Source: Vicinamibacteria bacterium (GTDB lineage Bacteria; Acidobacteriota; Vicinamibacteria; Fen-336). Taken from it: DNA of 64,000 bases. A program made the translations under genes and the position numbers. The notes under the pieces were generated by a model. It was not told the origin of the DNA and did no database searches. It worked only from the letters and a program-made list of their open reading frames with translations. The DNA is taken from the NCBI GenBank assembly GCA_035570235.1, contig DATMML010000036.1, positions 1-64,000 of the forward strand, given 5' to 3'. The stretch's first letter is position 1, and each line of letters begins with the position of its first letter. Positions 43,014 to 45,433 of this stretch are shown here, piece by piece.

Positions 43014-43087
43014 CAATGACGCCTCCTCGGACAGGGCGTGACCCCTCGATTCTACGCCGGGACACGCGTGCCGCTATGATGGCGCCG

Positions 43088-45433
43088 ATGAGCAAGAAGG
43101 CCCTCGGTGCGGCCGTCGCGGGAGGGGCGGCGGCGATTGGGCTCGTGGCCTGGTGGATAGCGCACGCGGCCGCCCCCTACCCCGGAGTATCGGGCGGGGA
43201 GTTGCCCCCGGCGGAGCCCGCCCGCTTCGTGGGCGGCCCCGCCTGCGCAAAATGCCACCCCCAGGAGGAAGCTCGGTGGCGCGGGTCGCACCACGAGCTT
43301 GCTATGCAGGTGGCAGACGCGACAACCGTGCTCGGTGACTTTGGGGGCCGTCGATTCACGTACCACGGCGTGACCTCCACGTTCTACCGGAAGAACGACA
43401 GGTTTCTGGTCCGGACCGACGGACCCGACGGTGCGCTGCACGAGTACGAGATTGCCTACACTTTCGGGGTTTACCCCCTGCAGCAGTATTTGATCGCCTT
43501 CCCCGGCGGCCGCTACCAGGCCCTGACCATCTGCTGGGACACGAGGCCGCTCAAGGAGGGCGGACAGCGCTGGTTCCACCTCCACCCAGAAGAAGAGATC
43601 CTGCCCAGCGATATTCTTCATTGGACGGGCCCCTACCAGAACTGGAACTTCATGTGCGCCGAGTGTCACTCGACCAACGTGAGGAAGGGCTACCAGCTGG
43701 CAACGGACACGTACCAGACGACGTGGTCCGAGATCAACGTGTCGTGCGAAGCCTGCCATGGACCCGGCTCCGCTCACCTCGACTGGGCTGAGGCGGTCAG
43801 GGCCGGCCGAAGGAAGAAGGACGACCCCCGCAATGGCCTGGTCGTGAGGCTGAAGGAACCGGTTCCCGCCACCTGGGAGTTCGACCTCTCGCGCGGTATC
43901 GCGAAGCGCAGCCGGCCGCGGGTGTCGCACACCGAGGTCGAGACATGCGCCCGCTGCCACTCCCGCCGCTCGGTGGTGAGCGCGGAGTACGTATTTGGCC
44001 AGCCCCTTCTCGACACACACCGCCCGGCCCTTCTCGAGGACGCCCTGTACCACGCGGACGGCCAGATCAAGGACGAGGTCTACGAGTACGGATCCTTCCT
44101 GCAGAGCAAGATGTTTCGCGCGGGTGTCACTTGCAGTGACTGCCACGACCCGCATAGCCTTAAGATACCCGTCTCCCCCGACGCGGTCTGCGCCCGCTGC
44201 CACCGGGAGGAGACATTCAACACCCCCTCGCATCACTTTCATCGACCGGGCTCAGGGGGGGCCAGCTGCGTCGCGTGCCACATGGCTCCCCGGAGGTACA
44301 TGGTCGTCGACCCCCGACGTGACCACAGCTTTCGCGTCCCCCGGCCCGACCTCTCGCTGCGCATCGGGACTCCCAACGCGTGCAACCAGTGCCACCAGGA
44401 CCGCTCGTCCGCCTGGGCGGCGCAGGTCGCGGCTCGATGGTGGCGGCGCGGGTCACCCAGCCCGCCCCACTACGGCGAAGCCCTCCACGCGGGACGGGCG
44501 GGTCTGCCGGGGGCGGAGCGGCTCCTGGCTGGTCTTGCCGGGGACGCGGGGCAACCGGGGATCGCCCGCGCCACCGCCGTCGCCCTCCTGGAGGGATACC
44601 CGGGGGCGGCCACCGAGGGGGCCGATGAGCAGGCCCTCCGCGACCCCGATCCCCTGGTGCGCATGGCTGCGCTGGGGCCGGCGGACGGCCTTCCGCCCGA
44701 CGTCCGTTTGCGCACCGTGGCTCCCCTCCTCAATGACCCCCTCCGGACCGTGCGCATCGACGCTGCTCGGCAGCTCGTTTTGGTGCCGCGCGAGGGCTTG
44801 AGCCCCCAACAGGGCAAGGCGCTTGAGGCGGCGCTCGCCGAGTACCGCGCCGCCCAGCTTGCCACCGCCGACCGGGCGGAGGCCCACCTCAACCTGGGCA
44901 CCTTGGACCTCGAGATGGGGGAGCTCGCGCAGGCGGAACAGGAGTACCTGACCGCGCTGCGCCTCAATCCGCGGTTCCCGCCGATCTACGCCAACCTCGC
45001 CGACCTCTACCGACGCCAGGGTCGAGACCTGGAGGGGGAGCGATCGCTCCGCAGAGGACTGGCGGCGGCGCCCACCGACCCCGGCCTCCACCAGGCGCTC
45101 GGGCTCTGGTTCGTCAGGCAGAAGCGCCTCCCCGAGGCCCTCGTGTTCCTGGCGCGCGCGGCGGAGCTGGGTCCCGATCAACCTCACTTCGGCTACGTCT
45201 ATGCCGTGGCCCTCCAGTCCGCCGGTCAGGTTGATCGCGCCCTGGAAGTACTGCGGAAGATACACCGAGTTCACCCCCGCGACTCCGAGGTCTTGCTGGC
45301 TCTCGTCACCATGAGCCGCGATCGGGGCTCGATCTCGGAAGCGATCGGCTACGCGAAGGAGCTCGCGGGGCTGTCCCCTCAGGACCCCCGGCTTCGCCGG
45401 CTTCTCGCGCAGCTGGAATCCGAGCGCCGCTAA
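43088..45433 (+). CDS. Octaheme c-type cytochrome with HEAT and TPR repeats
   Basis: About 781 residues from ATG 43088 (ATG 43076 or 43079 also possible; no ribosome binding site distinguishes them). An N-terminal membrane segment (GAAVAGGAAAIGLVAWWIAHAAA) is a signal or anchor. Eight CxxCH heme sites follow in order: CAKCH, CAECH, CEACH, CARCH, CSDCH, CARCH, CVACH, CNQCH, over about 350 residues, in a cytochrome c554-like arrangement. Then come two HEAT-like repeats (DPDPLVRMAAL, DPLRTVRIDAARQL) and about five TPRs (AHLNLGTLDLEMGELAQAEQEYLTAL and on). The role in electron transfer is clear, the redox partner and substrate are not. Confidence 0.87.
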   Translation: MSKKALGAAVAGGAAAIGLVAWWIAHAAAPYPGVSGGELPPAEPARFVGGPACAKCHPQEEARWRGSHHELAMQVADATTVLGDFGGRRFTYHGVTSTFYRKNDRFLVRTDGPDGALHEYEIAYTFGVYPLQQYLIAFPGGRYQALTICWDTRPLKEGGQRWFHLHPEEEILPSDILHWTGPYQNWNFMCAECHSTNVRKGYQLATDTYQTTWSEINVSCEACHGPGSAHLDWAEAVRAGRRKKDDPRNGLVVRLKEPVPATWEFDLSRGIAKRSRPRVSHTEVETCARCHSRRSVVSAEYVFGQPLLDTHRPALLEDALYHADGQIKDEVYEYGSFLQSKMFRAGVTCSDCHDPHSLKIPVSPDAVCARCHREETFNTPSHHFHRPGSGGASCVACHMAPRRYMVVDPRRDHSFRVPRPDLSLRIGTPNACNQCHQDRSSAWAAQVAARWWRRGSPSPPHYGEALHAGRAGLPGAERLLAGLAGDAGQPGIARATAVALLEGYPGAATEGADEQALRDPDPLVRMAALGPADGLPPDVRLRTVAPLLNDPLRTVRIDAARQLVLVPREGLSPQQGKALEAALAEYRAAQLATADRAEAHLNLGTLDLEMGELAQAEQEYLTALRLNPRFPPIYANLADLYRRQGRDLEGERSLRRGLAAAPTDPGLHQALGLWFVRQKRLPEALVFLARAAELGPDQPHFGYVYAVALQSAGQVDRALEVLRKIHRVHPRDSEVLLALVTMSRDRGSISEAIGYAKELAGLSPQDPRLRRLLAQLESERR

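Follow-up and report, generated by a model that had tools for sequence, protein, structure and literature searches.

The gene at 43088..45433 (+) of the window, that is, the whole stretch of 64,000 nucleotides that was analysed, encodes a single polypeptide of 781 aa plus stop in which eight CxxCH heme motifs are followed by a HEAT-like and a TPR solenoid, as an earlier note on this DNA had described, and it belongs to a real, conserved octaheme–HEAT–TPR family. The heme domain is a member of the NrfA-HAO-OTR-MccA-c554-OcwA superfamily and is placed on its OcwA/MccA branch because of its fold and the order of its motifs. The reading we favour, tentatively and at slightly less than an even chance, is that of an extracytoplasmic redox enzyme or relay of this branch, with a solenoid that serves to dock a client protein; in many lineages this client may be a sulfatase. 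No paper describing such an octaheme–solenoid fusion was found in the open literature, as judged by titles and the openings of abstracts, and no family-specific model was present among the Pfam and NCBIfam matches listed. The family is widespread in many unrelated bacteria and joins an eight-heme redox core to a solenoid that possibly grips proteins, raising the question of whether a multiheme cytochrome can become a client-specific redox enzyme by gaining a solenoid.

The gene, its heme motifs and candidate ligands

The open frame at 43016-45433 (+) contains in-frame ATGs at 43016, 43076, 43079 and 43088, the last being the start chosen in the earlier note and the one that gives the 781-residue product. 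AlphaFold2, run with relatives, returned a mean pLDDT of 94.3 for the whole protein and 92.1 for the cytochrome domain alone. A hydrophobic N-terminal helix in the model (residues 3-27, 43094..43168, +) may be an export signal or a membrane anchor, and a lipobox-like match, called by regular expression only, precedes heme 1 in 32/93 ORFs. In the favoured reading the protein would act outside the cytoplasm as a multiheme c-type redox protein.

The CxxCH motifs start at residues 53, 190, 220, 287, 349, 368, 394 and 432 and read, all on the + strand, CAKCH (residues 53-57, 43244..43258), CAECH (190-194, 43655..43669), CEACH (220-224, 43745..43759), CARCH (287-291, 43946..43960), CSDCH (349-353, 44132..44146), CARCH (368-372, 44189..44203), CVACH (394-398, 44267..44281) and CNQCH (432-436, 44381..44395). 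The number of motifs previously reported therefore stands, but they span ~385 residues rather than the ~350 given. Hemes 1 and 2 are separated by an insert that the model shows as a beta-sheet (residues 88-164, 43349..43579, +). Conservation was assessed on 199 genomes of the phylum, 59 of them with a match at E<=1e-10, together with 76 loci from contigs of other genomes; among the 110 matching ORFs, 99 cover the cytochrome domain, a set that counts the window protein itself and a small number of duplicates; the other 11 were set aside because they were partial or broken or repeated the window. Eight CxxCH motifs are found in 95 of the 99, the remaining four having seven CxxCH plus a CX4CH at site 8 (L020, L021, L022 and L109). 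When CX4CH is counted, all 99 ORFs keep eight motifs in the same order, which is no chance pattern; the variation of heme number or order in homologues that the earlier note had named as a counter-indication was not seen. The Cys and His residues of all eight motifs are invariant across 58 aligned cytochrome domains. CxxCK, reported missing from the window protein, is indeed absent from its ORF and from the 98 other ORFs examined.

Outside the motifs, His69, His230, His382, His385 and His413 are present in 58/58 cytochrome domains and His356 in 56/58, and each of these six aligns with a His of OcwA. Going by the alignment, five or six of the hemes are probably bis-His ligated; His382 is doubtful as a ligand because it aligns with the pair of His over OcwA heme 5. 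Residue 342 (44111-44113), which was placed by eye near the position of another OcwA His, is Met in 48/58 relatives and Cys in 9/58, and is a possible unusual heme ligand. The copper in the active site of MccA is held by cysteines; of the cysteines outside the heme motifs of the window protein, none is common to more than 60% of the 58 domains. By alignment with OcwA the heme 2 site is probably open or weakly ligated; against this, the His-His pair that OcwA has at heme 2 finds no counterpart in the family alignment. An open heme 2 would, in the favoured reading, bind a small substrate or the redox group of the client.

The solenoid and the spread of the family

The HEAT-like part occupies residues ~462-563 (44471..44776, +), as delimited by the family profile, HEAT_2 matches in relatives and the model, and is followed by the TPR part at residues ~573-780 (44804..45427, +), delimited by Pfam and the model. 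TPR families of Pfam match the window protein within residues 597-766, and TPR_14, at 1.4e-15 and 56.7 bits against a gathering score of 23.5, establishes TPR membership. No HEAT family appears among the best 25 of its 31 Pfam matches; the model has paired helices at residues 462-563, and alphaRep designs match family-profile positions 444-563. Among 58 C-terminal parts of relatives, 56 match TPR_2 and 46 match HEAT_2 (E<=0.01), fused to the hemes in each case, and the separately encoded solenoid that the earlier note had named as a counter-indication was not seen. Of eight distant members scanned singly at E<=0.01, two are without detectable TPR, one having HEAT only and one neither. The solenoid alignment contains four nearly invariant columns. 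In the favoured reading, the HEAT and then the TPR repeats would hold a client protein beside the heme chain; the earlier note had likewise suggested that the solenoid could dock partners in a self-scaffolding redox module.

TPR proteins such as CcmI and NrfG hold unfolded apocytochrome for heme attachment, and the TPR tail could likewise be a built-in assembly chaperone with no outside client. TPR_CcmH_CycH matches 48/58 C-terminal parts at E<=0.01, as such a role would lead one to expect; in the window protein it reaches 35.7 bits, under the cut-off of 42, and TPR families match each other generically. Since the two distant relatives without detectable TPR are nevertheless eight-heme proteins, and since the motifs of the window protein are all standard, so that no special lyase is expected, we consider a chaperone tail improbable.

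The octaheme gene has a patchy distribution. At E<=1e-30 it is present in 23/60 relatives and in only 2/13 of the further genomes assigned to the window's family; at E<=1e-10 the cytochrome domain has a single match in the host genome. Phyla are intermixed in a quick tree of 96 rows, in which 34 of 93 inner branches are open forks and some branches are long, and transfer of the gene between phyla is therefore likely. In one distant subgroup (L139:5860-7776), the start of the octaheme gene is overlapped by another gene that also has a heme motif.

Genes near the octaheme gene

Upstream of the window's gene and divergent from it is a prolyl oligopeptidase-like gene, identified by eye and 71 to 113 bases off depending on its start; the downstream neighbour encodes a protein of 409 aa that matches no Pfam family at 1e-5, and a 167-aa protein is also nearby. 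The absence of an adjacent partner oxidoreductase, stated in the earlier note, is borne out, and inspection of the neighbour genes revealed neither a sulfatase nor a redox partner. The window neighbourhood consequently gives no help on function, and sulfatase and cytochrome b-like neighbours are visible only across the family, in a set of 77 loci made up of the window and the 76 others. The first clustering of neighbours used six-frame ORFs; as shadow ORFs inflated other clusters, genes were called by codon usage and the neighbours recounted.

A sulfatase cluster lies near the octaheme gene in 23/77 loci, the window not among them. An HMM built from these sulfatases found one in 24/76 loci and in 5/20 additional loci of the phylum, but in 0/13 further octaheme loci, some of which are short and three of which repeat loci of the 76; about two thirds of loci are without a sulfatase nearby. 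When 1119 called genes were compared all against all by phmmer, the sulfatase cluster covered 22 lineage groups, assigned by hand, and the next families, an ABC ATPase and an SDR named by eye, 6 each. Likewise, PF00884 was the top family in a Pfam scan of immediate neighbours at 1e-5 (10/115), which left out seven near-duplicate loci, two broken-copy fragments and proteins under 120 aa. Of 70 genomes, 22 have a sulfatase in the locus where 2.3 would be expected, and none of 200000 simulations exceeded 12; after collapse to 51 groups the figures are 18 and 1.8, respectively. These ratios are rough because the expectations combine PF00884 counts at two E cut-offs (1e-3 and 1e-30) with rounded genome sizes and random placement, and because PF00884 includes non-formylglycine members. 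On the quick tree, with the sulfatase label on 25 of the 96 rows and left off L054, L071 and L103, the trait changes 15 times, at least 5 of these being forced by well-supported branches; no sulfatase or redox partner occurs in the branch nearest to the window (L043, L039 and L127) or in the 13 further loci.

Across the 199 phylum genomes, any sulfatase (E<=1e-40) occurs in 22/23 genomes with a close octaheme (E<=1e-50) and in 132/176 of the others, a weak co-occurrence (p 0.016). It is stronger for the CTAGR-type sulfatase (E<=1e-120), where 8/11 of the genomes holding it have a close octaheme (p 1.2e-6); for both p values the cut-offs were picked after viewing the lists and kinship was ignored. 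The neighbour counts link the sulfatase by gene position to the octaheme family in several phyla, which we regard as a lead, the window's own branch being without it.

Both genes could instead lie in accessory regions and occur together without acting together, a possibility to which we assign a considerable, albeit clearly minor, likelihood. The mixing of phyla in the gene tree fits such an origin, as do the several subfamilies to which the neighbouring sulfatases belong and the majority of loci without any, and sulfatases may themselves cluster in genomes. Against it stand the excess of 22/70 genomes over 2.3, the changes forced on well-supported tree branches and the narrower spread of the ABC ATPase and SDR families, which stops at 6 groups.

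According to the favoured reading, the client, or the pathway served, would in many lineages be a formylglycine-type sulfatase. By motif, 27 of 31 listed sulfatase ORFs are of the Cys type (CTAGR, CTPSR, CVPSR or CSPTR, for example); the exceptions are those of L064, L071 and L103 and one of the pair in L076, with L071 and L103 cut by the locus end. In the Nitrosomonas loci L061, L068 and L078 the only PF00884 match of the genome is the one in the octaheme locus. Sulfatase, HAD hydrolase and octaheme genes follow each other co-directionally in L056, L059, L062 and L114, with a 243-aa gene sitting between in L059 and L062, and in L060 the pair is divergent. Four Shewanella loci (L087, L094, L095 and L111) contain an FGE, a sulfatase, the kinase and regulator of a two-component pair, the octaheme gene, a protein of 260 aa and an anaerobic sulfatase maturase; in L094, the one searched with Pfam and NCBIfam, the maturase is TIGR03942 with 482 bits over a cut-off of 349, while the other three were assigned by phmmer or cluster. 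Several points count against this part of the reading. Hydrolysis of sulfate esters itself requires no electrons, the octaheme gene is patchy, the sulfatase subfamilies are mixed, and the window's gene and its nearest branch lack a sulfatase. The question raised is whether electron chemistry has a part in the breakdown of sulfate esters at all and, if so, of which kind. The window's genome (G000) has 33 PF00884 matches, and the CTAGR-type sulfatase finds none there at E<=1e-60; several of the 33 share length and place of the open frame with TPR matches, which suggests putative sulfatase–TPR fusions on contigs C72, C137, C85 and C25.

A further point against the sulfatase tie is that 19/20 sulfatase-adjacent genomes already hold FGE-family or maturase matches. 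PF03781 was found at E<=0.001 in 18/20 of these genomes and TIGR03942 over its cut-off in 5/23 tested; in the next 50 genomes, which repeat two earlier ones for PF03781 and three for TIGR03942, the numbers are 43 (E<=1e-10) and 8, respectively. PF03781 also covers non-maturase proteins, and its presence is thus a loose measure. Neither PF03781 (E<=1e-10) nor TIGR03942 (E<=1e-30) was detected in two Aliiglaciecola genomes, G215 (L103) and G263 (L102), where 8/10 and 3/4, respectively, of the PF00884 stretches sampled have a Cys-type motif by pattern; maturation in these genomes may follow a route not yet recognised or rely on a maturase that has diverged. Four Shewanella genomes with neither maturase (G256, G258, G259 and G260) were dropped as support, as 0/5 of their sampled PF00884 matches carry the formylglycine motif. 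The Aliiglaciecola sulfatases can be cited for a cytochrome-based third route of maturation, in which the solenoid would hold the sulfatase on the far side of the cytoplasmic membrane while the hemes take the electrons released from Cys on its conversion to formylglycine, or, as a variant, the heme chain would supply electrons needed by an oxygen-dependent enzyme. Both forms taken together appear very improbable.

Other neighbours recur less often. Five groups have a cytochrome b-like cluster close to the octaheme gene, accompanied in some cases by a Rieske-like gene, both identified by eye. These genes, and the wide lead of OcwA over all other solved folds, would suit a conduit or terminal reductase of the OcwA kind, which passes electrons to acceptors in the periplasm or outside the cell (iron, quinones, electrodes) and in which the solenoid only packs the complex. 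Such a conduit leaves the sulfatase link unexplained, to our knowledge many octaheme hosts are not known as metal reducers, and no porin–cytochrome cluster caught the eye among the neighbours; we judge it unlikely. A family of 240-295 aa, exported-looking and by eye perhaps a beta-barrel, lies near the octaheme gene in four groups (L059:6211-6939, L062:6175-6906, L113:6888-7772, L127:6225-6977, L133:9838-10557 and L134:15851-16570), and the two members scanned gave no Pfam match.

Comparison with known multiheme cytochromes

Since the best 50 of 1673 Foldseek matches to the whole protein were TPR or solenoid chains, the cytochrome domain was folded alone, whereupon OcwA became the best match (5e-12). 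Structure comparison (VIA) gave Z 20.2 for OcwA (rmsd 3.2, 329 residues aligned), 13.5 for 6qvm and 9.3 for MccA, and Z 4 to 6 for octaheme nitrite reductases, c554 and NrfA, a range attainable by unrelated folds, for which reason Z under 8 alone was discounted. A profile search placed OcwA (6i5b) first at 2.6e-31, followed by the undecaheme cytochrome 6qvm (6.4e-19), MccA (2.3e-9) and c554 (3.9e-8); NrfA, like c554 and MccA, was also found by sequence profile. The earlier note had proposed c554, OTR and HAO for comparison; the nearest solved folds, OcwA and then 6qvm and MccA, lie outside that trio. Membership in the OTR family was rejected (TIGR04315, 13 bits versus a cut-off of 375). The mark of HAO is a P460 heme cross-linked to a tyrosine.

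In the HMM alignment with OcwA, motifs 1-3 and 5-8 pair clearly, and motif 4 weakly, with OcwA hemes 1-4 and 6-9, motif 2 being the counterpart of the open heme 2 and the CLKCH of heme 5 being left over. The stretch containing motif 4 reaches just 6.5 bits, and at its tail CLKCH is set against motif 6, whereas a 54.8-bit stretch pairs motifs 5, 6, 7 and 8 with hemes 6, 7, 8 and 9; the loss of heme 5 is consequently inferred from the order of the motifs. The eight-heme chain would then correspond to OcwA hemes 1-4 and 6-9. In the OcwA study, hemes 2 and 5 are described as open and heme 9 as His-Met, heme 5 superposes on the NrfA active site, and octahemes are proposed to derive from nonaheme ancestors by losing one heme, 2 or 5 (PMC6703420). 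An octaheme without the counterpart of OcwA heme 5 bears on that proposal.

With c554, HAO and NrfA in the same superfamily, heme 2 might instead reduce nitrite, NO or hydroxylamine, or oxidise hydroxylamine. For OcwA, slow reduction of nitrite has been described, as well as turnover of hydroxylamine in both the reducing and the oxidising direction (PMC6703420), and three hosts are Nitrosomonas. The family is, however, without CxxCK and without the heme at the NrfA active-site position, and no nitrogen gene was seen among the best 25 of 139 neighbour families or the families found in at least 4 groups. A nitrogen-oxide enzyme is in our estimation quite unlikely.

The redox enzyme or relay that we favour can be set beside five known systems. 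With NrfA and the octaheme nitrite reductases it shares a heme core at superfamily level (Z ~4 to 6); NrfA membership was rejected, the catalytic CxxCK being missing in all 99 ORFs. Cytochrome c554 (1ft6/1bvb), of four hemes and 211 residues, shares the module of hemes 1-4 (Z 5.6), and the undecaheme cytochrome of Carboxydothermus ferrireducens (6qvm) has, by its title, eleven hemes as opposed to eight. The sulfite reductase MccA/SirA (4rkm) likewise has eight hemes, lacks OcwA heme 5 and contains a beta-sheet domain. An extra domain of this kind is reported to be common to OcwA and MccA, and the MccA active site to hold copper (PMC6703420). The one atypical CX12NKGCH/CX15CH heme site given as the mark of the MccA/SirA family in PMC6976685 is missing here, the window protein having eight CxxCH, and membership was rejected; the present family furthermore adds the solenoid. 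OcwA of Thermincola potens (6i5b), at 24% identity over the aligned part, shares the fold, eight heme positions, six His and the beta-sheet insert, but has nine hemes where the family has eight, and a three-helix bundle where the family has the HEAT–TPR solenoid.
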